From Spinacia oleracea (Eukaryota > Streptophyta > Magnoliopsida > Caryophyllales > Amaranthaceae), in NCBI RefSeq assembly GCF_020520425.1, contig NC_079492.1, forward strand, positions 2,170,001 through 2,234,000: a stretch of 64,000 nt of DNA, read 5' to 3'. The notes under the pieces are model-generated. The model saw only the letters and a program-made list of their open reading frames with translations. It did no database searches and had not been told where the DNA came from. Below, in pieces: positions 2,999 through 40,205 of this stretch. Both the position numbers and the translations under genes were made by a program. Each line of letters opens with the position of its first letter. Position 1 is the first letter of the stretch.

Positions 2999-3342
2999 AT
3001 GGTTTCTTAACAAACCTCCACAACTTGTTTATCATCATCATCCTCAAACAAACTGATAATCACAAGTGCAATTAGTGGTTCAAAATACCTTAAATTCCCC
3101 AAAATTACAGTGCCAAAACTACAAAATCATGTACTTCATCATCAAAAACAACATTTAATACAAGACCTTAATAACCTTACTAATTATAACCCAATAACCA
3201 CAAATGACGACCAAATGGAAACAATCAAGCTATACACAATCTTAGAATCGGTTAATGATAGGATTGAAATGCACAAAAACATCGGTGATCAACGCGAGAA
3301 TTGGAATTCCTTGTTGTTGAACTCGGTTAACATGATCACTCT
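2999..3342 (+). pseudogene. 5' part of At4g22030-like family gene, disrupted
   Basis: An ATG at 2999 is followed by a TAA stop at codon 4 (3008-3010). The same frame then stays open and encodes a serine-rich leader and a conserved block ([19 protein letters not shown], then [14 protein letters not shown]). This resembles the family annotated in Arabidopsis as probable F-box protein At4g22030; I see no F-box. The frame runs directly into the 12.3-kb retrotransposon at 3343 and resumes after it at 15611 in the same codon phase (..MITL / TAVTMAG..), so the two parts were one exon. The function of the family is not well defined. The early stop, the insertion and a lesion in the 3' part make this a pseudogene, unless translation starts elsewhere. 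The 3338-3342 ACTCT is the target duplication. Confidence 0.82.
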
Positions 3343-3796
3343 TGTTCCGGGTGTGGAATGAGAACAGCTGACTGTGGGATACTGGATTCCTGTCGAGATT
3401 GCCGGTTGATATCTGCACAACAGAATGGATTAACTAGCCTCGGGGGTGGTTCGAGGATCCCCCCTCCGATGCTTAAGTAAGATTACTGAGAGATTAAGAG
3501 ATGATTAGGGAGTAAGAAAGAAGTGTGTTTAAGTGTTTGTGTACCCCATAGCAATAAATGAGGTGCTCCTTATATAGACCAATCCAAGGGTACGATCTGG
3601 TAGGTCCCTTGTGGTTAGATAGCGACCTGTTGATAGTGACCCTTGGTTGGTTGTCTTCATGATAATGCCGGTAGGTTGTCTTGCAAATAATGCCGGTAGA
3701 GGATATTTACCTAAGATGACCAGATTACCTGCAGGTTAAGTTTACATACGGGGAGTTCTGCCGGTACCAGGTGGTGCCGGTAGGACACCCCGTACA
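3343..3796 (-). repeat. Inverted LTR copy at left end
   Basis: On the minus strand this reads TGTACGGGG...CCCGGAACA, the same as the 3' LTR at 15155-15605. It therefore points outward, opposite to a normal 5' LTR. A TATATA core-promoter motif inside it consequently also points away from gag-pol. Confidence 0.88.
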
Positions 3797-4029
3797 ACTA
3801 GCCCCCTCAGAGTAAGCGCATATATGACAATTGTTGCGCTTGCTCTGAGTTTAATGGGAAAAAATAAGTATTATTTTGCTACCTGGTGGTACAACTAGCC
3901 CCCTCAGAGTGAAGCGCGGGCGCTGACTGTATTGCGAGTATTTCTGAGAAAAGACCGCGAACAGTTTGTCGACCGCCTTCTCTCTGAATGAAGAAATTCG
4001 TTGCTAGGTCCTTTGGAAAAAAGATTTGG

Positions 4030-4470
4030 ACTACTAGCCCCCTTGAAAAAGGTTTTGGCGACTATCCCCCTTGAAAAAAGATTTGGACGATAGCCCCCTT
4101 GAAAAAGGTTTGGACGACTAGCCCCCTTGAAAAAAAGATTTTGACGACTAGCCCCCTTGAAAAAGGTTTGGACGACTAGCCCCCTTGAAAAAGGTTTGGA
4201 CGACTAGCCCCCTTGCAAAAGGTTTGGACGACTAGCCCCCTTGAAAAAGGTTTGGACGACTAGCCCCCTTGAAAAAAGATTTGGACGATAGCCCCCTTGA
4301 AAAAGGTTTGGACGACTAGCCCCCTTGAAAAAAGATTTTGACGACTAGCCCCCTTGAAAAAAGGTTTGGACGACTAGCCCCCTTGAAAAAAGATTTTGAC
4401 GACTAGCCCCCTTGAAAAAGGTTTGGACGACTAGCCCCTTTGAAAAAGGTTTGGACGACTAGCCCCCTTG
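4030..4470. repeat. Minisatellite, about 16 units of ~28 bp (left arm)
   Basis: Unit consensus GACTAGCCCCCTTGAAAAAG plus GTTTGGAC, with variants such as AGATTTTGAC. I count about 16 copies. On the other strand each unit contains AAGGGGGCTAGT, matching the core of the polypurine tract before the LTR (GAGGGGGCTAGT). Confidence 0.92.
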
Positions 4471-4669
4471 AAGATGCTGTGGGTGACTAGGCATTATTTT
4501 TGAATTTTTGTCGTGCAAGTGGCGGGAGATTGTTACCCACGTTCTCCCACGTGGCCTTCATCTCGAGCGTTATTTGGTGCGCTTAATCTGGGTCGTTGAT
4601 TCTGAATGTAACTGGCCTTTTAACTGCTTGACTTACGGGTCGTGACGTTTTGCATACCCCCCTTTGACC

Positions 4670-4678
4670 AATAAAAGG
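4670..4678 (+). promoter_or_regulatory. TATA-like motif of the antisense-ORF promoter, left-arm copy
   Basis: AATAAAAGG preceded by CCAAT (GACCAATAAAAGG). The mirrored site in the right arm (14303-14311) lies upstream of the antisense ORF. In the left arm, the inversion makes the same promoter-like region face gag-pol. The motif is weak and no transcript evidence is available. Confidence 0.3.
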
Positions 4679-4810
4679 CCTTAACCTCTTCGAGATTTTT
4701 CATTTCACCCACTTTATTCTTGAACTTCCGACCTTTCTCTCTCTCTTCCCCTGGGTTTTTCGCTGAAATTTGTTGCTGTTTGATTCTCAAGCTTTTGCTG
4801 TTGTTGTGGT

Positions 4811-7800
4811 TTGAATTTTCCAAGGTTTATTAGCCTCCTTTTTCGTTGTTACCGAATTTCGGGTTTTTCTTCCTCTCTTATTTTTGTGCTTGATTTTCTT
4901 TCGTTTCAATGCACCACATTCGAACAGCACATGATGCTGTACACTGATTCTGATGCCATGTGGTGCAAAGTATTCCCATCCACACTCCTAGGAGTGGCAG
5001 CGAGCTGGTATAAGGGCATAGAGGCACACTCCATATACAGTTTCCGACAGCTGCAGGCGTCGTTTTTGTCACGATTTGTGAGCAAACAGAAGAGAAAGAA
5101 ATCATCGGGAGAGTTGATGTCGTTCGCTCAAAGAGATAGAGAGCCGTTAAGGGATTATCTCACCCGCTTTAACAACGAGTCAATCACTATTCCCAATTTG
5201 CAGCAGGAGGTTGCTGTTCTGGCTCTTATGAGGGGAATGCAAGAGTGCGAATTCAAGAAATATCTCAGCCGGAAGTCATACACCAATCTGGGTGACGTCC
5301 TGCACAAGGCCAACGAGTACATCAGGGGGGATGAAATGATGAAGATCTCCAATGTGGTAGTGGCAACCGGCGGAAATGTCGGGTACAATCCAGGCTATAA
5401 CCCACAGACGGGAAAAGGAGGAAACAATTTTCATCAGAGCAATAATCAGCAAGGGGCAGGCCAGAGAAACCAGAATAACAGAAATGCCAATCCACAAGGG
5501 CAGAGAAGCCGGCAAGACAGAAGGGAGTCCAGAGGACTCTTTGATAACTACACTCCGCTGAACACACCGCGGACGGCAATTTATAACATAAACAACAAAA
5601 TGGATGGCTGGAGAAGGCCGCCACCAATGCAGAGCAGGGAAAGGAATGTCAAGAAATTCTGTGACTTCCATAATGAGCACGGCCACCTAACAGAGGACTG
5701 CAGAGACCTCAAAGACAACATTGAGGATATGGTCAGAAAGGGGTATTTCTCACAGTATAGGGCAAGGCAGGGAAATGGTAACAACAACTCGGTGGGAGGA
5801 AACCCTACCAATTCATACCGGCCACAACAGCAAAATCAACAACAATACCCTAGAATCGAGCAACCATATCAGCCGCCTAGAATCGAGCAAAAACAGCCGG
5901 AAACCAGTGCCAGAGCAGAACAGAGGGATGGCGGGAAAAAACCACCCGTGTATGTAATTTATGGCGGCCCAGTCCACGGAGGGACAATAAGCGGCGCCAG
6001 TAGAAGCTTGGAGGAACACAGGCACATGGTAAACTTTCATAACACAAGAGTGTGGCCTAACCCACCCAACATACCAGTGATGACATTCTCGGAATCGGAT
6101 TGCAGAGGCATCATTTTCCCGCATGATGACCCACTAGTTCTTACAATTGATATAGCAAATGCCGATGTGAACAGAGTACTGGTAGACGGCGGCAGCTCAG
6201 CAAACATCATCTTCTGGGAAGCTTTCAAACAATTGCACATACCAGAGGACGAACTTCAAAGGGTAAACTACCCAGTAATCGGTTTCTCAGGATCTACAGT
6301 GTACCCAGAGGGTAGTATAAGGCTGCCGGTGAAAATCGGAGAAGGATCCGAAATGCGAGATCTCATGGTGGATTTCCTAATCATTAAAGTGCCAGCGGCC
6401 TACAATGTGATCATCGGTCGCCCATTCATACATGAAGTGCAGGCGGTAGTCTCCACCTATCACTTGACAATGATATATATGTCGAACCTGGAAAGGCCGG
6501 CAAAGATAAGGGGAAGTCAGTTGGCGGCAAGGTCCTGTTACTTGACTGCTTTGAGAACACCGGGAAGAATGGTCCCAGAAGTGAACTTGACTACTGAGCC
6601 GGCAAGGCAAGAGATACACTTGACTACTAAGCCGGCAAGACAAGAACAACTGTCAAAAAGGAAGAGCTGCACAAAAAGGGGTCGAACCGACCTAAACATG
6701 GAACACTTTGATGAAAGGCCGGTATCAGCACCAAGACCAATGCCAGATGGTCTGACAGAAAATATCGAGCTGGAGGCTGGAAACATGGATAGAACAGTCG
6801 TGATCGGTACGGAAATGGGGAGTGACATGGAGGTCAACCTCATAAGCTTGCTGAGAGAGCACGCGGACATCTTCGCATTCTCGGCGGATGAGATGCCTGG
6901 TATCGATCCAGAGATAATGGTTCACCGATTAAACGCCGACAGAAATGTTAGGCCTGTACGGCAGAAAAAACGTAATTTCTCCACGGAAAAAATGACAGCA
7001 ATACAAGAAGAGGTGGATAAACTTCTGGCGGCAGGTTTCATTGAGCCATGTGACTACCCCGAATGGTTGGCAAACGTGGTAATGGTAAAAAAGTCAAGTG
7101 GGTCATGGAGAATGTGCGTAGATTTCACCAACCTTAACAGAGCATGTCCGAAAGATTTCTACCCCCTGCCACGGATTGATAGGCTGGTAGACTCCACTAG
7201 CGGTCACGCAATGCTCAGTTTCCTAGATGCTTTCTCAGGGTATCATCAGGTCAGCCTGCATAAATCAGACAGGAAGAAGGCGGCCTTTATCACAGATGCA
7301 GGAGTTTTCTGTTATAAGGCGATGCCGTTCGGGTTGAAAAATGCAGGGGCAACATATCAAAGGCTTGTTGACAAGGTGTTCGCCGACCAAAAAGGCAGAA
7401 ACGTGGAGGTCTATGTAGATGACTCTATCGTAAAAAGCCGGAAGGAGGAGGATCATGTTAACGACCTCCGAGAAACTTTTGAAACTTTGAGAAAATACAT
7501 GATGAAATTAAACCCAAAAAAATGCGTCTTCGGAGTAAGGTCGGGAAAATTCCTGGGTTTCTTGGTCAGCGAGCGTGGCATAGACGCCAACCCTGAAAAA
7601 GTAGAAGCAATCATCAGTCTGCCGCAACCCAAGAGCGTAAAAGACATACAGCGGCTGACAGGAAAAATGGCCGCCTTAAACAGATTTGTGAGCAAGTCGG
7701 CAGATAAGCAAATGCCCTTCTTCACAACCCTGAGGCAAAACAAGAAGTTCAAATGGGGGCCGGCAGAGCAAGAGGCCTTTGAAGCTCTAAAAAGTCACTT

Positions 7801-9955
7801 AAAGAACCTGCCAACAATAGCAAGGGCAAAAGAGGGCGGCAAATTACAACTATACATATCGGCGTCGCCAAAGACTGTTGCAGCAGTACTGGTAGCCGAA
7901 GCAGAGAACAAAGGGCAGCAGCCGGTATATTTTGTGAGCCATGTGCTAAACGGCCCAGAAACAAGGTACACGTTGGTGGAAAAAATGGCATATGCAGTCC
8001 TCATCGCGGCTAGAAAGTTAAGACCATACTTTGATGCGCATACAATCGAAGTGCTAACAAACTTTCCTCTCGAAAAAGCCATCAGCAAGCTAGATACATC
8101 AGGCCGGTTGCTAAAATGGGCAATAGAGTTGTCCGAGTTTGACTTGGAATTCCGGCCAAGAACTGCAATCAAAGCCCAGGCATTGGCGGACTTCATAGTT
8201 GAAGCGTCATACCAAGAAGATGAAGTACAAGCTGAAGTATGGGATGTGTCAGTGGATGGTTCAGCTGCACAGACAGGCAGTGGGGCTGGAATAATCATGA
8301 AATCGCCAGCAGGAGACATTTTTGAGTATGCTATAAAGTTTACGTTCAACGCGTCAAATAACGAGGCAGAATACGAGGCAGAAATTGCCGGCATCCAAAT
8401 GTGCCTCGCAGCAGATGCCAAAAGAGTAATACTGACAACAGACTCCCAGCTGGTAGCAAGTCAATTCAGCGGAGAATATGAGGCCAAAGAACCTTCGATG
8501 GTCAAATACCTGGAGAAGTTGAGGTCGGTGTCGGCTCAGCTAGAGAAATTCAGCATTAATCTGGTACCCCGAGCAGAGAACACACTGGCAGACGCCCTAT
8601 CAAAGTTAGCAAGTTCAAATGTCGCCGACTTGAAAAGAACAGTCATGATGGAAGTCATGAATAAGCGAAGTACGGAGTCGGAGATAATACGGGTCATGGC
8701 CATCACAACTACCTCAGAATGGTACGATAATATCCAAACATACATACAGACTGGAGCGCTACCAGCAGATTTTGCAGAGGCCAAAAAGACAAGAAGGGAC
8801 TCGGTTTGGTACATCATCCTGTGGGGACGGTTGTACAAAAAGTCATTTAGCCTGCCATTCTTAAGGTGCCTAACAGCATTCGAGTCAGCAAGGCTGATCG
8901 AAGAGATGCACGAAGGAACATGTGGGAACCATGCCGGTGGAAAACCCCTTGCCATCATCTGTCAAAGGCAAGGCTATTACTGGCCAACAATGTTAGAAGA
9001 TTGTCGAGCTTATGTAAAAAAGTGCGAGAAATGTCAAAAGTTTTCAGCTGTGATAAACTTGCCGGCCAATGATTTGATGCCCATTCTGAACCCAATCCCA
9101 TTCGCACAATGGGGAATGGATATTGTTGGACCATTCCCAATGGCGGCTGGAGGGCGCAAGTTCTTAATAGTAGCAGTGGACTACTTCACCAAGTGGATAG
9201 AAGCAGAGCCGGTAGCAAAAATAACGGCAAACCAGGTGAAAAAATTCATATGGAAAAATATAATAACAAGATTCGGGCTGCCGCAGGCAATAGTTTTTTA
9301 CCATGGAGCACAGTTTGATTGTGCACCCATACAATGCTTCCTGGGATTATACAGAGTAAAGTTAGCTCACTCGTCAGTATGTCACCCACAGAGCAATGGG
9401 CAAGCAGAGGCGGCGAATAAGCAAATCCTGGCTGCACTGAAAAAGAAGCTAGAAGACTGTAAAGGCAAATGGGCAGATCTTATGCCAGAGATTCTGTGGT
9501 GCAACAGAACTGCTATCAAGGAGGCTACCGGCGAGAGTCCGTTCAAATTAAGCTTCGGGTCTGAGGCTGTTATACCGGCAGAAATGGCTCTGCCAACCAT
9601 GCGAATCCAGCATTACGATGAGGAGAGAAACGATCAGCTGCTGCGACATCAGTTGGATTTCATGCCAGAAATCCGCATGAAAGCAGAAGTAAGTTCGGCA
9701 GCATACAAAAGCAGAATGAGCAGAGCATACAACAAGAAAGTGAAGCATCGGCCTCTAGGAGTAGGAGACCTGGTACTGCGGAGAACGGCGGCAATAGGAA
9801 AAGGAAATGCTCAAGGAAAGCTGACAGCCAATTGGGAAGGACCATACCAGATATGGGAGGAAATAGTTCCTGGATCATACCGGTTAATGCAAATGGATGG
9901 TACCGCGCTCAAAAACTCCTGGAACGCCAGTACTCTGAGAAAGTACTATGTTTGA
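4811..9955 (+). CDS. gag-pol polyprotein of the Tat-type gypsy element
   Basis: An open frame of about 1,714 codons, the first part of which lies in the inverted arm, so the true start is uncertain. Domains in order by residue: gag capsid-like region from about 35 (QHMMLYTDSDAMWCKVFPST); zinc-knuckle-like CDFHNEHGHLTEDC near 283; aspartic protease with LVDGGSSANI near 456; reverse transcriptase about 700-960 with YVDD near 866; a first RNase H about 1015-1130; a second, archaeal-type RNase H (SVDGSAAQTGSGAG) about 1145-1270; integrase from about 1340 with a zinc-binding region (CEKCQKF) and a core starting WGMDIVGPFP. Two RNase H domains mark the Tat lineage. The product would form virus-like particles and copy and integrate the element. 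The element as a whole is broken at its 5' end. Confidence 0.9.
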   Translation: MNFPRFISLLFRCYRISGFSSSLIFVLDFLSFQCTTFEQHMMLYTDSDAMWCKVFPSTLLGVAASWYKGIEAHSIYSFRQLQASFLSRFVSKQKRKKSSGELMSFAQRDREPLRDYLTRFNNESITIPNLQQEVAVLALMRGMQECEFKKYLSRKSYTNLGDVLHKANEYIRGDEMMKISNVVVATGGNVGYNPGYNPQTGKGGNNFHQSNNQQGAGQRNQNNRNANPQGQRSRQDRRESRGLFDNYTPLNTPRTAIYNINNKMDGWRRPPPMQSRERNVKKFCDFHNEHGHLTEDCRDLKDNIEDMVRKGYFSQYRARQGNGNNNSVGGNPTNSYRPQQQNQQQYPRIEQPYQPPRIEQKQPETSARAEQRDGGKKPPVYVIYGGPVHGGTISGASRSLEEHRHMVNFHNTRVWPNPPNIPVMTFSESDCRGIIFPHDDPLVLTIDIANADVNRVLVDGGSSANIIFWEAFKQLHIPEDELQRVNYPVIGFSGSTVYPEGSIRLPVKIGEGSEMRDLMVDFLIIKVPAAYNVIIGRPFIHEVQAVVSTYHLTMIYMSNLERPAKIRGSQLAARSCYLTALRTPGRMVPEVNLTTEPARQEIHLTTKPARQEQLSKRKSCTKRGRTDLNMEHFDERPVSAPRPMPDGLTENIELEAGNMDRTVVIGTEMGSDMEVNLISLLREHADIFAFSADEMPGIDPEIMVHRLNADRNVRPVRQKKRNFSTEKMTAIQEEVDKLLAAGFIEPCDYPEWLANVVMVKKSSGSWRMCVDFTNLNRACPKDFYPLPRIDRLVDSTSGHAMLSFLDAFSGYHQVSLHKSDRKKAAFITDAGVFCYKAMPFGLKNAGATYQRLVDKVFADQKGRNVEVYVDDSIVKSRKEEDHVNDLRETFETLRKYMMKLNPKKCVFGVRSGKFLGFLVSERGIDANPEKVEAIISLPQPKSVKDIQRLTGKMAALNRFVSKSADKQMPFFTTLRQNKKFKWGPAEQEAFEALKSHLKNLPTIARAKEGGKLQLYISASPKTVAAVLVAEAENKGQQPVYFVSHVLNGPETRYTLVEKMAYAVLIAARKLRPYFDAHTIEVLTNFPLEKAISKLDTSGRLLKWAIELSEFDLEFRPRTAIKAQALADFIVEASYQEDEVQAEVWDVSVDGSAAQTGSGAGIIMKSPAGDIFEYAIKFTFNASNNEAEYEAEIAGIQMCLAADAKRVILTTDSQLVASQFSGEYEAKEPSMVKYLEKLRSVSAQLEKFSINLVPRAENTLADALSKLASSNVADLKRTVMMEVMNKRSTESEIIRVMAITTTSEWYDNIQTYIQTGALPADFAEAKKTRRDSVWYIILWGRLYKKSFSLPFLRCLTAFESARLIEEMHEGTCGNHAGGKPLAIICQRQGYYWPTMLEDCRAYVKKCEKCQKFSAVINLPANDLMPILNPIPFAQWGMDIVGPFPMAAGGRKFLIVAVDYFTKWIEAEPVAKITANQVKKFIWKNIITRFGLPQAIVFYHGAQFDCAPIQCFLGLYRVKLAHSSVCHPQSNGQAEAANKQILAALKKKLEDCKGKWADLMPEILWCNRTAIKEATGESPFKLSFGSEAVIPAEMALPTMRIQHYDEERNDQLLRHQLDFMPEIRMKAEVSSAAYKSRMSRAYNKKVKHRPLGVGDLVLRRTAAIGKGNAQGKLTANWEGPYQIWEEIVPGSYRLMQMDGTALKNSWNASTLRKYYV

Positions 9956-10790
9956 AAAAAAACCTGTAATGATGATGTATGAGCAGGCTGATTGCAATAG
10001 CCGTCTGCATTTTGCTGTTATGTATAATTAGGGCGGTCCTCAAATACGACCAGTCCATAAATGAAGGAAGAAAAAAGCAAAAAACAAACGCTGCATAAAT
10101 CAACACGCAAAGGTAATGTATGGATGTGATCAGTAACAGTAAAGAAAATAAATGCCGTTTGGGCACTTTACTGCGAAGCGTAGCAGTCCATAATAAAGTT
10201 GTTGTGATTAGTAGCTTTGGAGAAAATAAATGCCGTTAAGGCGCACTCCATTGTGAAGCGTAGCATTCAACGAATTGTATGGTGTGACTAGTAGCCGTAC
10301 AGAAAATAAATGCCGTTAAGAGTATTAGAAAAAATAAACGATGTTAAGATGCACTCCATTTCGAAACATAACAATCATTTCGAAGTGTATCATTTCAACA
10401 AGTTAAAAATATAGAAAGGCCGTCAACAAATAAGAGTTCATGCTAATAAAATGGAAGTATCATACGCAAAACGAAGTAAACATACAATCAAAAACTACTT
10501 GTTATAAATGCATGATTACAGCAGAAAAAAACACTAAAAACCGACAGCCATCACCAAAAAATCTTGCGAAGTGATTAGCTGATCACAAGGCACAAAAGAT
10601 GTCGGTTAAAAACCGACACCCCTACAATAAAACGATGTTCTAAGATATGTTACATCAACAATAAGTGCCCTAACAGCATCTGGAAAAAAGTCAAAAGCCA
10701 ACCGGCTAAACTAAAAAACCCTAACATGTATGAGGCCGGCTGGGAAAAGTAGAGGATCCGCAAGAAGAGGAGGGTGATGACTGCCAAGAC
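9956..10790 (+). repeat. Region 3' of pol with degenerate ~80-bp repeats
   Basis: Non-coding. About three to four degenerate copies of a unit containing AAAATAAATGCCGTTAAG, then CACTCCAT and GAAGCGTAGCA, lie at 10141-10375. The rest is A-rich with GCCGACA motifs. Confidence 0.6.
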
Positions 10791-10792
10791 CG

Positions 10793-11365
10793 TCAAACGG
10801 CACGCTCATCACCAGACCAGTAGGCATCTTCTGGAACTTGCAAGGGGGGCAAGGTTCTTTGATTGGCATTGCAAATCACAGCCTCGGGTAGCTCCTGAGG
10901 CTCAAAGCCGGTAGCAACCTTGTACAGCTCCTTCTCCTCATACCCAGCCTCAAATTCTTGCCACCCATCCTCATCCAGCTTCTTCACATGGCAAACGACC
11001 CGATGAGCAGCGCACCAACCACCGTTATGGCGCAGAGTAAGAATATCATTAAACCAGTCAGACTGGAGAAGCTTATCAACAGCTCTCTTGGCGGCAGTCT
11101 TCTTCACCACAGGCAAACTCTGGTTAAGACCAGTCAGCTCCTCAGTCAGACCGTCTGCCCTCTCAGTTTCAGCCTTCAGCTTCGGCTCAACCTCTTCCAG
11201 CCTTCGGTTCGTCGCCTCCAAATTCGAAGAAGCACTCTCCAAATTCTTCTCATTAATCTTCAAAGCAGATTCAGCCGCCTCAGCCCGCTTCTTCAGCTCG
11301 GCAATATCAATGCTATTCTGCGTCAGCTGCATCTGGTTCCAACGATAGACATAGTACAAATCCAT
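10793..11365 (-). CDS. Antisense extra ORF of Tat element, coiled-coil exon
   Basis: Open minus-strand frame with a long heptad-like charged region (AELKKRAEAAESALKINEKN), predicted to be coiled-coil. It lies downstream of two other antisense reading frames, and plausible GT/AG sites between them suggest splicing. Extra ORFs on the antisense strand between pol and the 3' LTR are known in Tat-lineage elements, and their function is unknown. Confidence 0.6.
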   Translation of the reverse strand: MDLYYVYRWNQMQLTQNSIDIAELKKRAEAAESALKINEKNLESASSNLEATNRRLEEVEPKLKAETERADGLTEELTGLNQSLPVVKKTAAKRAVDKLLQSDWFNDILTLRHNGGWCAAHRVVCHVKKLDEDGWQEFEAGYEEKELYKVATGFEPQELPEAVICNANQRTLPPLQVPEDAYWSGDERAV

Positions 11366-11450
11366 GCTGGATTAAACAGCCTAAGAAACAAAAAAAATTG
11401 TTGTACAAATGAGTAATCAAAAAAAAAGCCGGATAGAAAGTTGTAGCAAG

Positions 11451-12308
11451 CTAAGCAAGAAATACCTTGTATAAATCGTTGAAATGCTGAGCAGCAGGGG
11501 CGTCAATCTGACCCTGTGGCCTGTCAGCAGGAGTAATCAGATCCCGAAAAGCACGGTAGCCCAAATCCCCACCGTCCTTAGAAGAATCCGTCGCCACCGA
11601 CTCCCCACACAGCAGATCAATGTTTGGGTAGAACTGATCGGTGGGTTCGCCGCCAGAAGACCCGAACCATGATTTCATTGCTTCCGGGATCTTAAAGGGG
11701 GTATCCTCAATCCAACTGCCGGTACGAAGCGGCAGATGATAATTTAGTCGAGAATCACCAGATCGATTCTCGCTACGACTAACAGGAGGCATACTAGAAT
11801 TACCCCCTGTCACTGCGGCCGACATGGCACAGTGCTGAAACGGAGCCTCATTCTCGCCGCCACGATCTTCCTCGTCCAAAATCTCAATGGACGGCTGCGG
11901 AGACGGGTGAACCGCAACAGCAGAATCAGCCGTCTTTTTGAAAGCATCGTCAGCATGGATTTCGTACTGATCAACAGCAGCCGAAACATCATCGCCGCCA
12001 GCGGCCTTAGACTTCTTAGTGGGGTCAGAACGCCCACTAGTAAGTGACGACCTCTTCCGAGTCCTCCCACCACGGCCGGTTGGATTAGATTGCATAGTGG
12101 GCGGTTGCACAGTTTTTGGAATAGAGACAGACGAAGATTTTGTTTTAGAACCGCCGGCAACACGATTCTTCGCAATAGTAGCAGTTGAGCGACGGGAGGA
12201 GGCACGTGTGGAATACGTTGATATGGTGTCGTACTTTCCCTTAGGCGGCGGAGGCTGCGTACACACAGGTCGCCAATTCTCGTCAAATCCGAGAATTTCT
12301 CTATCCAA
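11451..12308 (-). CDS. Antisense extra ORF of Tat element, middle exon
   Basis: Minus-strand open frame rich in Ser, Arg and Pro (GRGGRTRKRSSLTSGRSDP), low complexity in its first half. No catalytic motif is recognisable. A GT-AG pair lies between it and the upstream frame (acceptor close to 12320), so it is probably one exon of a spliced antisense transcript. Confidence 0.55.
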   Translation of the reverse strand: MDREILGFDENWRPVCTQPPPPKGKYDTISTYSTRASSRRSTATIAKNRVAGGSKTKSSSVSIPKTVQPPTMQSNPTGRGGRTRKRSSLTSGRSDPTKKSKAAGGDDVSAAVDQYEIHADDAFKKTADSAVAVHPSPQPSIEILDEEDRGGENEAPFQHCAMSAAVTGGNSSMPPVSRSENRSGDSRLNYHLPLRTGSWIEDTPFKIPEAMKSWFGSSGGEPTDQFYPNIDLLCGESVATDSSKDGGDLGYRAFRDLITPADRPQGQIDAPAAQHFNDLYKVFLA

Positions 12309-12374
12309 TGTTTTAGTACCTGCAAAGACAACGACTCAATTAAAACCGGCAAAAAACTTATGCAATACACAAAG

Positions 12375-13883
12375 CTATAAATAGCAATAATAAGTACATC
12401 CCATTCGGCTGAAAATATGTTTACCAAAGCAGTGGGTGTTGCAAAGGCCGACAGCGGACAAGGGCTGATTACCCAAAATATAATAGGCATTAGGGAGCCA
12501 ATTTCGATTAACAGCCTGTTTTTTGCTGAGGCCGACATCTAAAATGTCACACGCCAAATAATCAAAAGCCTTTCTCTCCCGCCGGCCCAAACCACGCTGG
12601 TCATACTGCTCCATTCGAGGCCGGGGTTTAGAAAATGTCCGTCGGAGCAAAAAGCCGTCAGGAACTTGAACGAAGTAAAAGCGATCCTGCCAATCTTTAC
12701 AGCTCGACAAAGGAGGATGCACAGTCTTTCTCTTCGTTGCGCTATACGCCGACATCCACCCCGTCTCTCCATCCTTCTTCAACCATAACAGCCGCTTGAA
12801 CAAATTCAACGTCAGCGGCCATTGTTTAAACAAACACAACCAGACATATGAGATAACAGTTCTGATGGTAGTAGGGGTAACTTGGGCCAAGCAGACGTTC
12901 CAAGCCCGGAATATTTTCTCAACAAAGGGGTGCAGAGGAAAGCGAAGCCCAAAATCGAAATGCTTCGCATACACAGCAATATGGCCGGGAGGACAGTCGA
13001 ATATAGTTGCACCTTCATCCGGCACTACCAGCTTATACTCAGCCGGCAATCCAAGAAAAGTCCCTCCATGAACCACATGATTCTTCTTTATGATCAGATC
13101 GCGCCAAGACGTCAAAATCGCGGTTGTACGAGGAAGACTTTTTAAGGGAGGGAGTTCTTCTTTCCTATGAACATCCGTGGAGTCGTCGGTAAAATAAGGC
13201 TGTTCTTTAGCCTCATCCGCAAGAACTTCAGCGACTATCACGTCGGCCGGATCGTCATCATCTGAACCAATACCGTCGTCTCCAATGTCTGCGTCATCCC
13301 TACCAGAAACGCCAGCATCTTCACCATCATCACCCCTATGAGCATCAACATCCTTGCCGGCGGAATCCTCAAAGATGGAATCACCATCGGAGTATTCGCC
13401 GGTAGCCATATCAATATCATCATTAACAGGCTCTTTACCAGGGCGGCGGCCACTAGTGCTAGCCGGTTGTTCGGAAGCCATCCTATCAGCCTGACCAAAA
13501 GAAACACCGAAGTTGCCAGTATTAGTTCCATACTGCCCGTGGCCACTGCCGGTGGAATTCAAGAATTCCCGGTAATCACGAATATAATACCGCACCGAAA
13601 GGGGAGAAACATCTAAAGCAGGCTCAGAAGCCGGAATAGGATGCTCGCGAGACCTCATTTCCCGTATCATTCGAGCCCGCAGATGATGTAGGGCATAACA
13701 ACGCTCTCTCTCAGCCTGATTCAAACCCTCGTCATAAACCTCACGAATGGCAGTCCGTCTTAAATTAGATTGAGAGTACGGCTCCTCCCGGGCCCAACTA
13801 CAATTACTCTCTTGAGGAACACTCCAACCGGTAAACCCAGAAGGCTGAGAAGAAGGGTTGTCCCCACCCACATTTTTGGTCAT
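12375..13883 (-). CDS. Antisense extra ORF of Tat element, putative gypsy-type transposon domain
   Basis: Likely ATG at 13883 (MTKNVGGDNPSSQP). The N-terminal half is acidic and low complexity. The C-terminal half holds the block AVYAKHFDFGLRFPLHPFVE and ISYVWLCLFKQWPLTLNLF. This is the Pfam family called putative gypsy type transposon (Transposase_28), which is commonly found in plant Tat-type elements. The same domain occurs at 33550-34368 in the other Tat element. A donor-like GTAAAC near the 3' end suggests splicing to the next frame. Role unknown. Confidence 0.7.
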   Translation of the reverse strand: MTKNVGGDNPSSQPSGFTGWSVPQESNCSWAREEPYSQSNLRRTAIREVYDEGLNQAERERCYALHHLRARMIREMRSREHPIPASEPALDVSPLSVRYYIRDYREFLNSTGSGHGQYGTNTGNFGVSFGQADRMASEQPASTSGRRPGKEPVNDDIDMATGEYSDGDSIFEDSAGKDVDAHRGDDGEDAGVSGRDDADIGDDGIGSDDDDPADVIVAEVLADEAKEQPYFTDDSTDVHRKEELPPLKSLPRTTAILTSWRDLIIKKNHVVHGGTFLGLPAEYKLVVPDEGATIFDCPPGHIAVYAKHFDFGLRFPLHPFVEKIFRAWNVCLAQVTPTTIRTVISYVWLCLFKQWPLTLNLFKRLLWLKKDGETGWMSAYSATKRKTVHPPLSSCKDWQDRFYFVQVPDGFLLRRTFSKPRPRMEQYDQRGLGRRERKAFDYLACDILDVGLSKKQAVNRNWLPNAYYILGNQPLSAVGLCNTHCFGKHIFSRMGCTYYCYL

Positions 13884-14507
13884 TTTGTTTTTAAGGCGGC
13901 GGATAATTAAAAACAAGAAAAAATTTGACACCACAGAAATGCAAAAACAAAAATATATGTATAGCAAAGAGTAGCAAAATAGAGGGGTGGGTACCTACTG
14001 TTTTTTCTGGAGTTTGAAATACAAATGAAGCACGCGAAAGAGAAAAACAGGGAGAACCTACAAAAAACACAGAAACGAAAGAAAATCAAGCACAAAAATA
14101 AGAGAGGAAGAAAAACCCGAAATTCGGTAACAACGAAAAAGGAGGCTAATAAACCTTGGAAAATTCAAACCACAACAACAGCAAAAGCTTGAGAATCAAA
14201 CAGCAACAAATTTCAGCGAAAAACCCAGGGGAAGAGAGAGAGAAAGGTCGAAAGTTCAAGAATAAAGTGGGTGAAATGAAAAATCTCGAAGAGGTTAAGG
14301 CCTTTTATTGGTCAAAGGGGGGTATGCAAAACGTCACGACCCGTAAGTCAAGCAGTTAAAAGGTCAGTTACATTCAGAATCAACGACCCAGATTAAGCGC
14401 ACCAAATAACGCTCGAGATGAAGGCCACGTGGGAGAACGTGGGTAACAATCTCCCGCCACTTGCACGACAAAAATTCAAAAATAATGCCTAGTCACCCAC
14501 AGCATCT

Positions 14508-14935
14508 TCAAGGGGGCTAGTCGTCCAAACCTTTTTCAAAGGGGCTAGTCGTCCAAACCTTTTTCAAGGGGGCTAGTCGTCAAAATCTTTTTTCAAGGGG
14601 GCTAGTCGTCCAAACCTTTTTTCAAGGGGGCTAGTCGTCAAAATCTTTTTTCAAGGGGGCTAGTCGTCCAAACCTTTTTCAAGGGGGCTATCGTCCAAAT
14701 CTTTTTTCAAGGGGGCTAGTCGTCCAAACCTTTTTCAAGGGGGCTATTCGTCCAAACCTTTTGCAAGGGGGCTAGTCGTCCAAACCTTTTTCAAGGGGGC
14801 TAGTCGTCCAAACCTTTTTCAAGGGGGCTAGTCGTCAAAATCTTTTTTTCAAGGGGGCTATCGTCCAAATCTTTTTTCAAGGGGGATAGTCGTCAAAACC
14901 TTTTTCAAGGGGGCTAGTAGTCCAAATCTTTTTTC
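14508..14935. repeat. Minisatellite, about 15 units of ~28 bp (right arm)
   Basis: Unit CAAGGGGGCTAGTCGTCCAA plus ACCTTTTT, with a CAAAATC variant. I count about 15 units against about 16 in the left arm. The unit core AGGGGGCTAGT is the same as the polypurine tract at 15141-15154. Confidence 0.92.
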
Positions 14936-15140
14936 CAAAGGACCTAGCAACGAATTTCTTCATTCAGAGAGAAGGCGGTCGACAAACTGTTCGCGGTCTT
15001 TTCTCAGAAATACTCGCAATACAGTCAGCGCCCGCGCTTCACTCTGAGGGGGCTAGTTGTACCACCAGGTAGCAAAATAATACTTATTTTTTCCCATTAA
15101 ACTCAGAGCAAGCGCAACAATTGTCATATATGCGCTTACT

Positions 15141-15154
15141 CTGAGGGGGCTAGT
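15141..15154 (+). other. Polypurine tract before 3' LTR
   Basis: CTGAGGGGGCTAGT directly precedes the LTR start TGTACGGGG. A purine run here is the expected plus-strand primer site. A second near-identical block lies at about 15042-15060, and the core is further repeated about 15 times in the minisatellite. Confidence 0.7.
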
Positions 15155-15605
15155 TGTACGGGGTGTCCTACCGGCACCACCTGGTACCGGCAGAACTCCC
15201 CGTATGTAAACTTAACCTGCAGGTAATCTGGTCATCTTAGGTAAATATCCTCTACCGGCATTATTTGCAAGACAACCTACCGGCATTATCATGAAGACAA
15301 CCAACCAAGGGTCACTATCAACAGGTCGCTATCTAACCACAAGGGACCTACCAGATCGTACCCTTGGATTGGTCTATATAAGGAGCACCTCATTTATTGC
15401 TATGAGGTACACAAACACTTAAACACACTTCTTTCTTACTCCCTAATCATCTCTTAATCTCTCAGTAATCTTACTTAAGCATCGGAGGGGATCCTCGAAC
15501 CACCCCGAGGCTAGTTAATCCATTCTGTTGTGCAGATATCAACCGGCAATCTCGACAGGAATCCAGTATCCCACAGTCAGCTGTTCTCATTCCACACCCG
15601 GAACA
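15155..15605 (+). repeat. 3' LTR of the 12.3-kb Tat element
   Basis: 451 bp, TGTACGGGG...CCCGGAACA. It contains a TATA motif (TCTATATAAGG near 15373-15383) followed by a probable transcription start region. The outer end abuts the ACTCT duplication. Confidence 0.9.
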
Positions 15606-16294
15606 ACTCTAACCGCGGTTACAATGGCGGGTCTAGCTGAATCTAGTAGGTCGTCAAACGGGTTAGGGTTAAAGGTGTCATCAACCTTACTCTTTGTAGC
15701 GGGTACAGGGTTACTTTTGGTAATGAACAAGATTCAACCTTCTCAGTTAGTTGAGGAGCAAAGGAACGCTGTCAGGTTGTTCAAACGCCTTCAGACTAAC
15801 ATCAACACCACTCTTTCTATCGGAAAACCGAGTCGGGAAGATGTCGAGGTGGCGATGGCGAAGGTGTTGGCTTTGGATAGGGCATACCCGTTACCTCTTT
15901 TAGGGGCTATGATTGATAAATACCCCGAGAGTTTACAGCCTGCTGTATGGTGGCCGTCTAATAAGAAACAATCATCAACTTGGGGCAGTGGGGCGGACTT
16001 GTGGCGGCGGTGGCGGGGTCTATGGCTGCGGCGGTGAACACCATAGAGCATGGTGGGCAAGTAGGAATGGTGTTTGAGATGTACAGGAATTGTGCTGGTT
16101 TTTTTAAGTTGTTGGAAGAGACTGTTGAGTCTACCTTAAATGAGGAAGATTTAGGGAAAAGAGAAAATGGAGAGGTTTTTGAATTGAAGATGGCTTTACA
16201 TTTGGGAAGAAGTCTGTCTGAATTCAGGGATTTTGCCGAGAAATCAAGAAGAAATGGTGGTTCTGTTGATGGATTTGCAAGCAAGCTCTTTTAA
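15606..16294 (+). pseudogene. 3' part of At4g22030-like family gene
   Basis: Continues the exon interrupted at 3342. After the duplicated ACTCT, the frame gives TLTAVTMAGLAESS, a hydrophobic segment, then MNKIQPSQLVEEQRNAVRLF and KVLALDRAYPLPLLG, all conserved in the family. After [11 protein letters not shown] near 15970, the expected middle segment is missing, and the C-terminal part ([20 protein letters not shown], stop at 16292-16294) is in another frame. So the gene also carries an internal deletion with frameshift, independent of the retroelement. Together with the stop at codon 4 this supports a pseudogene. Which lesion came first cannot be told from this window alone. Confidence 0.82.
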
Positions 16295-16536
16295 ACATGC
16301 ACATAATTAATATAGCAGTGAAAATAGTACAGGAAATTCAGAAATTCTTTTATTCTTTTATCAGTTCTGAAGATGACACTATTTGTCTGTATGTATAGAC
16401 TAATTTAGGTGATTTGTACATGTAGGAATGATTTGTAAGTATTGGAAAATATGACATTAATTATAGTATAAGTTTCAAAATCCAATTTTCAATCGAGATG
16501 ATCAATGATTTATACTCCAATCAATTCAATAGTACT

Positions 16537-20973: not shown

Positions 20974-23036
20974 TCAAGCCATTGGATCCTTGGCAAAGCT
21001 TAGAATAGGATCATTCTCGCAAAGCAGTTTAGCAGCATTAAGCAGAGTAAACAACAGTAGTCCGATGAAAACTAGGAGGGAGAGTCCCGAGATGATGAGC
21101 ATCAACGCGGCTGCTGCATGGCCTTTGACCTCCTGTGCGTACTCTGCAGCTGCTAGAGCTAGCATGGTTAGCGGGAATGAGTACGCCCACCACGCTATGT
21201 TGAACTTCCTCATCGATTTCTTGAACAGAGTTGGCCTGCTCACCTGAAGAATCACCAACACCATTGAAAAATATCAGTTATTAAACACACACAAAAATTA
21301 CTACTTTCTGGTTGCGTGTGTAAGTGTATTTCGAGTACAGATGATCATCGTGAGCCCTGCCCGCTGGCCCGGCCCGGAAATAGCGGGTTTAGGCAGATTT
21401 TTTAGGGATGGCCCGGCCCGACAATATTGGGTTTATGCAGAAATTTCAGGCCCGGCCTGAAAATAGCGGGTTTAAGCATAATTTTAACCTTAGATTCCAA
21501 AAACATATAGCACACGTAGTAATAATCTCGTTGTCTTTTTCAGGTTTCCAAAATTTGCTTGTTTAGGAGTTTTAGTTTCCCCTGCCCCCATTTTTAAAGC
21601 TTCTATTGTAAAAACTTGCATAAGATTCCATATTCAAACTTTAGTTTGAACTCCAATTAGTGTATCTTACTAAGTTTAGTCTGAACTAGACCTGATCAAA
21701 AGGCGGGTCGGGCCGGGTTCGGGCATAAAAATCTGCCCATTACGCCGGGCCGGGCCAAAACATCGGGCCGATTTTTTGTGCCCAAAATCCGCTTTTTCGG
21801 GCCAAAAAAAGTGGGCTTTTCGGGTCATTTTTGGGCCGGGCCAAAATTATAACTAAAATTGTTGTTTTACATTGTTCAAAGCCCGTAATTTTTTTAAGAA
21901 GTTTGGGCCGGGCCGAAAAAGGCTGCCCAAAACCCGGTATTTTTCGGGCCGGGCCATCGTTGATCAGCTCTAGTATGAACTTATTAAAACTTGTCAAAAC
22001 TTATTTTAGTTATAATTAATACTTGGTCAACCCTTATATGTTTCCTGAAGTAAGGGGAAACAAGGTGAACAGAACATAGCCTTACCAGTGATGCAAAGAG
22101 GAAGAGTGAGAGGAAGAACAACATCTTCGACTCAGTATCATAAGATCCAGAGATAGAGCTCCAAGCCAAGCTAGCCATGCTCGGAACTGCGAGAAAAAGG
22201 AAGAAAACAGGACGAAGCATAGCAGGAAGACGATCTCCACCAGACAACCTTTGATAAAGAGTTACAAAAAGCACCAAATAATGAGCCATCCCTAACGAAA
22301 ACATACACACTGCACTTTCCTTCCACCCCATCTTAGCCGCGGCCCTAGCCCCAACCAGGTTCCCTAGGACCGATAACTGGCTCGTAGGGTTAGCCACCAT
22401 GGACAGGAACTTCTTCTCAGTGGTGAACCATTGACCGTATATTTTGACATCCAAGACTATGATTGGGATGGAAAATGCCCACCATAGGACTAGATGAGGG
22501 AAACCCTTTGGAGAAATGAAGATAGGGGTGGATTGGAGGAGGAGGAGCCAAGATGTCCAAGGGGCAAAAAGGTAATTCACACCTACATGGTGTAAAAGCT
22601 CTGCTTTTACTAAGTGGAAGTGGAAGAAGCATCGTAGCAGGTAGAAGAGGGAGAGGGAGATTAGTATTAGGAACGAGAGGGTCCAGAGGAGGAAGGAGGC
22701 CGTTAATGGGAGATTGTGGAAGACGTCTAATAGTGGTGATGGTTTGATGATGGTTTCAGTTGTTGTATTGTTATTATGAGTGGTTGTTTGGCGAAGGATT
22801 TTCCAAAGGAGTGCTTGGCTTCCAAACGCGAGGCTGATTCTGAAGTAGCCTGCATGGAGTCTGGCTAGAATGGAGGATAAGGATTTCTTTGAGGGAGTGA
22901 GTGAACGGCGGTGGCGGTGGCGGTGGCTATGAGTTGGTGTTGGAGTTTTAGGAGTGGTGGTGGTGGTGGTGGTGGTAGCAATGGTGATGGAAGAATCAAG
23001 CTGAATAGAGGATGGTTGTACTTCTATGCTCGACAT
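20974..23036 (-). CDS. S-type (slow) anion channel, SLAH1/SLAH4-like
   Basis: Two exons on the minus strand: 23036-22086 and 21243-20974, joined in phase 0 across GTAAG...CAG, giving 406 residues. It matches the SLAC1/SLAH (C4-dicarboxylate transporter/malic acid family) fold. Conserved blocks are LHAGYFRISLAFGSQALLWK near residue 60, GVNYLFAPWTSWLLLLQS, KIYGQWFTTEKKFLSMVANP, MGWKESAVCMFSLGMAHYL and FKKSMRKFNIAWWAYSFPLT, with about ten hydrophobic helices. The short N-terminus (about 55 residues, with Thr and His-rich runs) resembles SLAH1/SLAH4 rather than SLAC1. The family mediates chloride/nitrate efflux across the plasma membrane; SLAH1 works with SLAH3 in root xylem loading. The 842-bp intron holds a hAT MITE. 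The frame is intact. Confidence 0.93.
21687..21972. mobile_element. hAT-type MITE in the SLAH intron
   Basis: 286 bp with TIRs TAGACCTGATCA and TGATCAGCTCTA, flanked by 8-bp duplications GTCTGAAC (21679-21686) and GTATGAAC (21973-21980), which differ at one base. The interior is rich in GGGCCGGGCC motifs. An 8-bp duplication marks the hAT superfamily. A related GGCCCGGCCC-rich stretch lies at about 21350-21480, without clear ends. Confidence 0.82.
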
Positions 23037-26090: not shown

Positions 26091-27476
26091 CTAAAGAATG
26101 TTTTCTTGTAAGATGCTAAAAATCTTAGTACTAAAGATTGACAAGAGATCGCTCAAATAATTATTTTCACAATTTTTATAAGCTAAGGTTATACCTTTAC
26201 AAAAGAAATCACATTTTATACAATTACATATTGTATTCCTACAACAATTTAATAATTCAACATTAACAAATTGAAGGTTATGCTCAATGGTTAAACTTAA
26301 ACATAACCCATCTATAAAAATGGAACTTTTACTTGTCATATTGGGCTGGGCCTTTTGGGCCGACAAAAGGCCCATATTGCTTGAAATATCATTTTCTTCA
26401 TCACTAATTTTGTTGCTTCTCACTGTGATCCAATCCTCATCCCAATCCCAATTAGGAAACTGATCCCAAGATGAATTTACCATCAACTCCTTTATTCTAT
26501 CAATATGAGACTTGGTGGATCCTTCTTGGGCCACATTTTCGTGGGCTAATTGAGATTCCTTCAGGTTTAGGGTCTCCCAAATACCTTGGTCCAATATGCT
26601 TGTTGGAGTATCCATATTCGGCCCAAAGTCTGGCCCATAATCAATAACAAAAGGGTGTGTAAGAAGTTCAGCAACTGACCATCTCTCTTTTGGGTCTCTC
26701 TTCAAGCATTTAGACAAGAAGTCCTTGGCTTGGTCCGGTAAGAAGTCCGGAATTTCAGGCAACAAACCCGAAAACCCGATATGATACAAGGCCGAAAGCG
26801 GGTCTTGGGTAATATTGGGCCATGGGCTAACCCCGGTAGCCATCTCAAAAACGGTACAACCCAATGCCCAAACGTCTGCCGGGTAACTTTGTTGCTCGCC
26901 ACGTGCCACCTCCGGGGCCATGTACAAGGGGGTCCCACCTATCTCCGTCACGGACGAATCAAATCCTGCCACATCATTTACCACTTTACAACACCCAAAG
27001 TCCCCAATTTTCACCCCTTTACTAGTTACCAAAATGTTAGCACACTTGACATCACAATGTACCATACCTTTACAATGTAGGTACTCTAGTCCCCAGAGAA
27101 TTTCTCCGGTGTACCGTCTCATCAACGGATCGCTTAATCTGCCACCGCCGCCACCACCACCACCACCTCCACCTGCACCACCGCCGCCGCCTTTCGTTTG
27201 AATGACGTCAGCAAGCGTGCCACCAGAAGCATACTCTAGGAGAATATTGTACAACACCTTACCATTTTCAATAGTAACATCAAACCCTTTGTACTCAATA
27301 ACTTGATCACATTTTAACCTTGAATGAATTTCTTGCTCCTTTCGTAGAGTACTCGATTTCGAGTACTCGACGGACTTGACGGCGAAGGTTTCGCCACTAG
27401 GAACGGTGTTTGCTAGGGAGACTGCGGCGGAGGAGCCACGGCCAATGAGCTTGCCTCGAATCCATGATGAGTTCAT
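26091..27476 (-). CDS. MAPKKK17/18/20-like protein kinase
   Basis: Intronless frame of 461 codons. An N-terminal kinase domain covers residues about 5-275: glycine loop IGRGSSAAV near 11-19, lysine in FAVKSVE near 34, catalytic loop HCDVKCANIL near 138 (Cys replaces Arg of HRD, usual in this subclass), IGDFGCCK, and YMAPEVARG. A family motif WDEDWITVRSN follows the kinase domain. This subclass of MEKK-type kinases (MAPKKK13-21, intronless in Arabidopsis) feeds MKK3-type modules; MAPKKK17/18 respond to ABA. Oddities: a run of about 17 residues that is nearly all glycine interrupts the kinase domain around residues 97-112, and the last about 75 residues (Cys/Asn/Leu-rich) look unlike typical family tails and may be extension into former 3' UTR. 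No stop or frameshift is seen. Confidence 0.88.
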   Translation of the reverse strand: MNSSWIRGKLIGRGSSAAVSLANTVPSGETFAVKSVEYSKSSTLRKEQEIHSRLKCDQVIEYKGFDVTIENGKVLYNILLEYASGGTLADVIQTKGGGGGAGGGGGGGGGGGRLSDPLMRRYTGEILWGLEYLHCKGMVHCDVKCANILVTSKGVKIGDFGCCKVVNDVAGFDSSVTEIGGTPLYMAPEVARGEQQSYPADVWALGCTVFEMATGVSPWPNITQDPLSALYHIGFSGLLPEIPDFLPDQAKDFLSKCLKRDPKERWSVAELLTHPFVIDYGPDFGPNMDTPTSILDQGIWETLNLKESQLAHENVAQEGSTKSHIDRIKELMVNSSWDQFPNWDWDEDWITVRSNKISDEENDISSNMGLLSAQKAQPNMTSKSSIFIDGLCLSLTIEHNLQFVNVELLNCCRNTICNCIKCDFFCKGITLAYKNCENNYLSDLLSIFSTKIFSILQENIL

Positions 27477-31281: not shown

Positions 31282-33091
31282 TGTTCCGGTGTTGAAGTGG
31301 ATAGAACAATGGGCTTCGAATGAAGTGTTAGGTTATGATACATATGACAATTCATAAAACGGAAAAACCATAAAGCCAGGAAAACATATTATTTACACAT
31401 AATCATTTAGCATAGTTTAGATGCATACTCTTTGTTGCGTGCCTTCCCTAGCTGCGCCCGAGTCGAACAAGAACAAGTCTTTAGGACTCCAAGTGTCGTC
31501 CCTCCGTAGATAGTCCACAGCACGTCCGGATCCGCCTTAAGATTGACCAACTAGAATCGCCCTTAAGGTACTATTATTTTCGGCACTTTTAGGCAAATGT
31601 GTGACTGAATTTTTCTCTCAAAAACTCACTTTGAATACTTGAAAACTCGTTGTAAATATGTGACCCTAGGCACCTATTTATAGAGTTATGGAAAAGGATT
31701 TGGAATCCTATTAGGATACTAATTTATTTAATTATAATCCTACTAGGACTCTAATTAAATAAACTAAATCTTTTAGGATTAGATTTAATCATATGACGAA
31801 TCCCGGTAGCCTTAGGATTCGAGTAACACACTTCGAGTAATACGCTAGCACCGCACGCAGGCCTTGCGGCCCACGCACAGCGCCAACCCACTCGTCGCAG
31901 CCCCGCGCGCGCGCCCAAGCTTCGGCTGGGCCTGGCTTTTGCGCTGGGCCTGGTCGCATGCTTGGCGTGTGGTTGTTGCGCTTGGCTTGCTGGGCGATGG
32001 CCCGGCTTCGTTTGGGCCTTCGTCTGGCAGGCCTCGTCCGATGCTAATTCGTACGATGCGCTTCCGATTAAATTCTCGATTCCGGAATTTATTTCCGATA
32101 CGAACAATATTTAATATTTCCGATTCCGAAATTAATTTCCGTTTCGAACAAATATTTAATATTTCCGTTTCCGGAACTATTTTCCGATTCCGATAATATT
32201 TCCGATTCTGACAATATTTCCGTTTCCGGCAATATTTCCGATTCCGGCAATATTTCCATTTCCGATAATATTTTCCGATACGTACCATGTTTCCGTTTCC
32301 GGCAACATCTACGACTTGGATAATATTTATATTTCCGATACGATCCATATTTCCGTTTCCGGCAATATCATCGTTTCCGGAGTATTCATTTCTTGCTTGT
32401 GACGATCTCAGCTCCCACTGAAACCAAGATCCGTCGATTCCGAATATCCATAGATGGAGTATTTAATGCCATTAAATACTTGATCCGTTTACGTACTATT
32501 TGTGTGACCCTACGGGTTCAGTCAAGAGTAAGCTGTGGATTAATATCATTAATTCCACTTGAACTGAAGCGGCCTCTAGCTAGGCATTCAGCTCACTTGA
32601 TCTCACTGAATTATTAACTTGTTAATTAATACTGAACCGCATTTATTAGACTTAACATTGAATGCATACTTGGACCAAGGGCATTATTTCCTTCATGAAG
32701 GCCCTTTCGAGTGTGTTGAAGATCTTGCTAGCTTGAATGAGTAATGTCCGAATTCACCTGCACAAAGACAATGTTACTAGCCTCGGGGGTGTTTCCGAGG
32801 AAAGCCCCTCCGATGCCTAAGTAAGAACAATGCTCGGATCTTAGAGAGAAGTTCTCTAGAGAGTAGTCTTAAGGCAATAAATTGGACGTACCTTGAGGTG
32901 TGAGCCTTGGCGGCCTATTTATAGTGTTTGTATAATAAATATCCACATAGGTCATTTATTGTTTGGTGGGCCTTGGGCCTTGCTGGCTAGTCAGCCGTTT
33001 TTGTAGTGTTTGTGGGTTTGATGTTGTTGTATTGAGCCATTGGGCTTTGGACTTTAATGGCCCAATTGGTAGCCAATTGGGAGCCCAAACA
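31282..33091 (-). repeat. 3' LTR of second Tat element, split by a solo LTR
   Basis: LTR sequence at 31282-31325 and 32697-33091, matching 59632-60066. The two halves are separated by a 1,371-bp insertion with TGAAG on both sides. The order relative to pol makes this the 3' LTR. Confidence 0.88.
31326..32696 (-). mobile_element. Solo LTR of the Copia-type family
   Basis: 1,371 bp, TGTTAGGTTATG...TTTCCTTCA, flanked by a perfect TGAAG duplication (31321-31325, 32697-32701). It matches the LTRs at 37776-39209 and 56137-57606. The middle is a degenerate array built from ATTTCCGATTCCGGCAAT-like units. It is the product of LTR-LTR recombination after insertion into the Tat LTR. Confidence 0.88.
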
Positions 33092-39209: not shown

Positions 39210-40205
39210 CAAGGTACACAAATAATTGTGAGTACATGTTCTTAGGTTATGATACATATGACAATTCATAAATCATGCGGAAAAACCATAAAGCCAGGAA
39301 AGCATATTATATTCACATAATCATTTAGCATAGAATTGATGCATACATGTTGTAGCGTGCCTTCCCTAGCTGCGCCCAAACCGAACAAGAACAAGTATTT
39401 AGGACTCCAAATGTCGCCCCTCCTTAGATAGTCCACAGTACGTCCGGATCCGCCTTAAGTTAGACCAACTAGAATCGCCCTTAAGGTTACTAGGAATTTC
39501 GGCTAGTGTTTGCAAGTGTATGGTTAATTTTATTTCAAAAACTTACCCTTTGAATACTTCAATCGTTCCTGCAAATAATGACCCTAGGCCCTTATTTATA
39601 GAGGTATGAAAAAGGAACTGGAATTCTATTAGGATACTAATTAGTTAAACTAGAATCCTAGTAGGACTCTAACTAATTAATTTTATCCTTTTAGGATTAG
39701 GAATTTAATCATCAAACAAATCCTACACAATTTAGGTTTCGTATGTGAACACAAACTCTACACGAGCATGACCCACGAGCACTAGTAGAAAAAACACTTA
39801 TTACAGCCCCCTTATTGAAGGGGGCATAGAGAAATACGCTTCAACAAGTAATTGGTCAACGCGGGTCAAACATTATAAAGGGTTGTTGAAGCGAACATTT
39901 TTATTGTTCGCTTCAATAGCAATTGTTGAAGGGGGCATTAAATGTTCGCTTCAACAAATACTACTCGCATATACTCTAATTTTTAATTCTCTCTCCTCCT
40001 GATTTCTCCTGTTAGCCTGAAATTTTCATTTCTCTCTCTTCTCTTCCCGGTTCAAAACTCCTCAAACCATCCGCCCCTTTCCATGGAAGATCTTCTCTCC
40101 CTCATTCTCTATAATTTCAAAGAAGGTGTCTTCATAACTGAATTTTTCTGTTAATTTTGAATTATTGTTCTTGGGAATAGAGATTGGTTTTTGGTGTCAA
40201 ATTTT

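Follow-up and report, generated by a model that had tools for sequence, protein, structure and literature searches.

Inverted LTR arms with a U5 end at each terminus in a Retand-like retrotransposon copy of Spinacia oleracea

Background

Retand elements are plant LTR retrotransposons whose antisense open reading frames (ORFs) carry Transposase_28 in 97% of clusters, according to excerpts of a survey of 617 assemblies (PMC11963269); part of a second source also covers the Retand layout (PMC7264820). The copy described here resembles Retand in its gag-pol, where RNase H is matched twice and the integrase is of the DDE type, and in a long region between pol and the 3' LTR that holds antisense ORFs, a PF04195 Transposase_28 match and tandem repeats. 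It differs in that its LTRs are inverted, 5' LTR and PBS are absent and gag is truncated, and its LTR of ~1.28 kb slightly exceeds the range of 315-1,194 bp given for the clusters in the survey excerpts (PMC11963269).

Inverted LTRs around ORFs are found in DIRS-1 and other tyrosine-recombinase retrotransposons, and this likeness extends to the present copy. DIRS-1, however, uses a tyrosine recombinase and is thought to integrate circular intermediates (excerpts of PMC5633606), whereas the present copy encodes the core of a DDE integrase and is flanked by a 5-bp target site duplication (TSD). A reading of the locus made from its sequence alone (the sequence-only reading) had named no established class that integrates with two U5 ends. 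As far as inverted LTRs in general are concerned this was too broad, because a class with that arrangement exists in DIRS-1, albeit one that works by a tyrosine recombinase (excerpts of PMC5633606).

Integrase is known to join a pair of identical U5 ends to a target in the test tube, where U5-end DNAs undergo concerted integration in strand-transfer assays (PMC3790719, in excerpt); those substrates are short DNAs, and the insertion here is genomic and 12 kb long. Inverted circles produced by retroviral or Ty autointegration share the inverted LTR orientation (PMC4751563, in excerpt) but are circular and have an LTR terminus at the inner junction, whereas the present copy is integrated, has a host TSD and has an internal-internal (leader-gag) junction. 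Recombination of incomplete HIV-1 cDNA has also been proposed, but in the excerpted part of that work it is integrase-independent (PMC5072744). For a locust Gypsy element, "inverted LTR" denotes an LTR that sits in inverse orientation within an intron. In the open-licence literature searched, no integrase-type element was found with a U5...U5 insertion in a genome, and the lack of precedent is provisional.

In this paper we describe the structure of the copy, the identity of its two outer ends and the parts that it lacks, and weigh the routes by which it could have arisen.

Results

Inverted arms and feature order

The element spans positions 3343-15605 (12,263 bp) of the window, that is, the whole 64,000-nucleotide stretch of Spinacia oleracea contig NC_079492.1 that was analysed. 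Its features and those of the interrupted host gene are as follows.

3110-3342, plus strand: host gene upstream of the insertion, PF14476 profile positions 1-38
3338-3342, no strand: TSD, left copy, ACTCT
3343-4654, minus strand: left LTR, 1312 bp, inverted, U5 end outermost; inner limit putative, placed by a PPT-like tract
4655-4907, minus strand: inverted copy of the stretch directly upstream of the 3' LTR, with the PPT-like tract and the antisense-ORF promoter/leader; ends at the inner junction
4907-4908, no strand: inner junction, where the inverted antisense-ORF leader abuts gag
4908-9955, plus strand: gag-pol in a single open frame, with gag (N-terminal ~205 residues absent), RT, two RNase H matches and integrase
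10793-13967, minus strand: antisense ORFs (10793-11365, 11451-12308 and 12375-13967) between pol and the right LTR
14072-14324, plus strand: stretch upstream of the 3' LTR, common to the left arm, with the antisense-ORF leader, a promoter-like site (14301, minus strand) and PPT-like AAAGGGGGG at 14314
14325-15605, plus strand: right LTR, 1281 bp, a correctly oriented 3' LTR with its U5 end outside; U3 start putative
15606-15610, no strand: TSD, right copy, ACTCT
15611-15980, plus strand: host gene downstream of the insertion, PF14476 profile positions 40-161

Self-BLAST of the window paired 3342-4907 with 15606-14072 as an inverted repeat (97.1% over 1568 columns, E=0), and a repeat search again paired the arms as inverted, in several pieces. 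Global alignment of 3343-4907 with the reverse complement of 14072-15605 gave 5 substitutions and 31 gap columns, the latter comprising one 28-bp minisatellite unit and 3 bases across two homopolymer runs; Tandem Repeats Finder counted 16.1 units of the 28-bp minisatellite in the left arm and 15.1 in the right. All five substitutions have C or G in the left arm and T or A in the right, a bias in too few differences for interpretation. The likeness between the arms breaks off sharply at 4907/14072. Beside the TSD the element begins TGTTCCGGGT... on the left (TGTTCC...) and ends ...ACCCGGAACA on the right (...GGAACA). The sequence-only reading had described the two arms as mutual reverse complements and had placed ACTCT on either side of the 12.3 kb; its arm coordinates are exact, and both copies of ACTCT lie where the list above has them.

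The interrupted host gene

When the flanks are merged over a single ACTCT they form one open frame, so that the empty site can be read precisely. The merged protein of 197 residues matches PF14476 (Chloroplast_duf, "Petal formation-expressed") with E=2.4e-76, its residues 40-196 aligning to profile positions 1-158. Scanned separately, the left half stops at position 38 and the right half starts at position 40, the split codon being 39. Since the merged match runs without a gap over positions 38, 39 and 40, the element is a single clean insertion, and apart from the duplication the host sequence has neither lost nor gained anything at the site. Arms of 1.5 kb, together with the return of a conserved host frame once the TSD is taken out, are far beyond chance. 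The host gene carries a second lesion at 15980-16300, where the match past position 161 restarts at 239 in a different frame, and this copy of the gene therefore looks broken independently of the insertion.

Identity of the outer ends

The window contains a second Retand-type element (31282-60066, minus strand) with gag, pol and an opposite-strand Transposase_28 ORF, which served as a control. Later insertions have fragmented it, and its ends are still readable: directly repeated LTR pieces (397 bp, 99.2% identical, and 44 bp, 100% identical), an LTR of 435 bp, the TSD GATAG, and a U5 end ...CACCGGAACA followed after two or three bases by PBS-like TGGCGCCGTCTGTGGGGA. A short LTR-like repeat family also occurs in this region, with direct repeats at 37774-38316 and 39242-39780 (98% identical) around 0.9 kb; parts of the 37774-39780 unit recur near 31326-32695, 45514-46392, 52265-53037 and 56135-57607, within the second Retand element.

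The R/U5 block of the control LTR aligned to the plus strand of the right arm at 15469-15535 with a score of 70, against 21 on the minus strand; 200 mononucleotide shuffles of the right arm reached a maximum of 30 (mean 21.9). By this homology the right arm is a regular 3' LTR that runs in the direction of gag-pol and has U5 as its outer end. The left arm repeats this sequence in inverted orientation and therefore also has U5 outermost, which upholds the proposal that both outer ends are the same LTR end. TATA-like TATATAAGG at 15375 (plus strand) and 3568 (minus strand) points outward on both sides. The U3 start probably lies at 14325, as placed from the PPT-like tract at 14314.

Coding content

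Judging by its layout and by the control element in the window, the copy is a Ty3/Gypsy element of the Tat/Retand kind. The plus-strand frame 4811-9955 holds 1,714 codons, the first ~32 of them within the left arm, and in this one frame lie Pfam matches to gag, RT, two RNase H domains and the integrase core (rve, DDE); an aspartic protease match is weak (E=0.052). As in Retand, gag, RT, RNase H and integrase share one direction of transcription, gag being truncated relative to the control, and an antisense Transposase_28 ORF (12375-13967, PF04195, E=1.2e-7) lies between pol and the 3' LTR. The first antisense ORF had no NCBIfam match. Two LTRs in direct orientation are absent; with inverted arms the copy is therefore a rearranged Retand derivative and no intact member. 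Pfam scans of four ORFs gave no match to a recombinase family, and a DIRS identity is ruled out by the rve core in the gag-pol frame together with the TSD.

The antisense ORFs were also considered as a trace of a head-to-head fusion of two elements. This was rejected, as such ORFs are antisense normally, both in the control element and in the Retand survey; the antisense ORF is normal for Retand and lies outside the anomaly. Between pol and the antisense ORFs, at 10114-10348, there are degenerate repeats of ~80 bp that resemble the tandem arrays reported there for Retand elements.

Missing parts

The element has no sense 5' LTR. The first residue of its gag with homology to the control is number 36 of the frame (base 4916), 8 bases past the junction, and corresponds to residue 207 of the control gag, so that ~205 gag residues are missing. 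A PBS normally adjoins the inner side of the U5 end of the 5' LTR; the element has no inward-facing U5 end, and no PBS was found beside a 5' LTR. A search of the element with the control PBS gave at best a match with 6 mismatches in 18 (0 for the control itself, by construction). The sole TGGCGCCG in the element is a minus-strand site within the gag-pol frame (5992-5999), away from any LTR. The features lost are thus the 5' LTR, the PBS, the leader and the start of gag.

In viral_contigs nothing matched the 25-base junction exactly, and a 352-residue pol stretch gave 1 candidate stretch in viral_contigs and 18 in genome_contigs, none of them confirmed; both collections are viral and prokaryotic and have no bearing on plant copy number.

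Discussion

An accident during reverse transcription, whose product was still accepted by integrase, probably gave rise to this U5...U5 insertion. In the cDNA of an LTR element the U5 end is completed early on, once the first strand transfer has taken place, and the U3 end comes last, requiring the second transfer and completion. An unfinished cDNA can therefore offer integrase only its U5 end, the other end being ragged, and the parts that the present copy has lost are those made last or located toward the 5' end. Under the proposed scheme, a first unfinished cDNA would have extended from its U5 end back as far as gag (4908), and a second, shorter one from its U5 end only as far as the antisense-ORF leader (14072). 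Fusion of the two unfinished ends would yield a molecule with two finished ends, both of them U5. The same product could be reached if, at 14072, synthesis of the minus strand jumped from gag RNA to minus-strand DNA and then copied that DNA out to the U5 terminus. In either case integrase would then have attached the two U5 ends to the host PF14476 gene at sites staggered by 5 bp. A purine-rich plus-strand start at 14072 was considered as support for a defined intermediate and rejected: a 14-base window there is 93% purine, yet 9.5% of leader windows are at least as rich.

The clean TSD (ACTCT on both sides, a short 5 bp) and the TG...CA termini, as expected of a DDE-integrase insertion, argue for integrase in this event, and the DDE integrase (rve) that the element encodes is consistent with a duplication of that length. 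It had been proposed that integrase joined an already palindromic-ended DNA to the host. The TSD and the gapless host gene support the single insertion event in this proposal; that the fusion preceded integration, by end fusion or by strand switch, we infer. The suggestion that aberrant reverse transcription had supplied an inverted copy of the 3' end likewise fits the structure, and can be sharpened to the joining of two unfinished cDNA ends, the order of events being the conditional part. The 5 substitutions and the 28-bp unit between the arms fit ageing and descent from two parents alike.

A change after integration is the alternative that survives best, although we consider it unlikely. 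An ordinary element would have inserted at ACTCT, and break repair or replication template switching would later have put the inverted 3' end over the 5' LTR, the PBS and the start of gag. The TSD and the precise empty site are expected from this history too, and the left flank with the putative U3 start (T/TG) shares 3 bases with the reversed right end (T/TGTT), sufficient for a microhomology switch. Such a switch, however, must have landed precisely on the LTR terminus next to the TSD, 1 of ~1,300 LTR positions, and a second switch back to gag would also be required. Fusion before integration is favoured because a later change must stop exactly at the LTR terminus.

That the assembly or a library is at fault, and the true element has direct LTRs, seems quite improbable. 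Fold-back chimeras are known in long-read data, but at the left junction the U5 end meets unique host DNA precisely at the TSD, different host flanks that each carry a matching TSD are not what a fold-back read would leave, and the two arms differ by 5 substitutions and 31 gap columns. A deletion between two elements of opposite orientation, the left one on the minus strand and the right one on the plus strand, could account for the left arm as the 3' end of the minus-strand copy; we give this very little credence, since the outer TSDs would be unrelated (a 5-bp match by chance is 1 in 1,024) and the host DNA between the elements would be lost, whereas the host gene is continuous to the codon. 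Autointegration, in which self-attack by the cDNA yields an inverted segment and circles with inverted LTRs can arise (excerpts of PMC4751563), is hardly credible at all: its described product is a circle without a host TSD insertion, and an LTR terminus is expected at the inner junction, whereas position 4907 at the junction matches 14072, which lies 253 bp internal to the putative U3 start; this contradicts an origin by autointegration, provided that the U3 start is placed rightly.

A commonly used plant substitution rate is 1.3e-8. With this rate the divergence of the arms (5 substitutions in ~1,534 aligned bases, 0.33%) corresponds to an insertion age of about 0.13 million years, given arms identical at birth; the insertion may be younger still, in case the arms stem from two parent copies. 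Because the PBS is absent and no LTR promoter reads into the element, the copy should not move. The sequence-only reading had left room for a mobile form; this is unlikely for a copy without a PBS and with outward-facing LTR promoters, and the copy looks like a one-off, immobile event rather than a new class of element. The promoter-like CCAATAAAAGG of the antisense ORF is duplicated at 4668 on the plus strand, upstream of the truncated gag-pol, whose first in-frame ATG is at 4931, with another ATG preceding it at 4909; expression of this frame is speculation.

If read support holds, the cDNA-fusion origin would make this locus a natural record of a genomic insertion by integrase in which the DNA carried the U5 end at both termini and the 5-bp duplication was correct, and an aberrant cDNA intermediate, normally lost, would have been preserved. 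Inverted terminal LTRs that share a TSD, sorted as U5...U5 or U3...U3, would reveal the frequency with which unfinished cDNAs are joined and inserted, and whether annotation based on direct LTRs misses such inverted copies. It is conceivable, if somewhat doubtful, that unfinished LTR-retrotransposon cDNAs regularly fuse tail to tail and insert by two U5 ends in living plants, and that inverted-LTR insertions are a class overlooked because annotation seeks direct repeats.

The window holds a further inverted pair at 55247-56010 and 62167-62942 (83% identical, 788 bp). Ordinary genes are also present on the minus strand, a SLAC1-type anion channel and a protein kinase, at 21984-23036 and 26091-27476.
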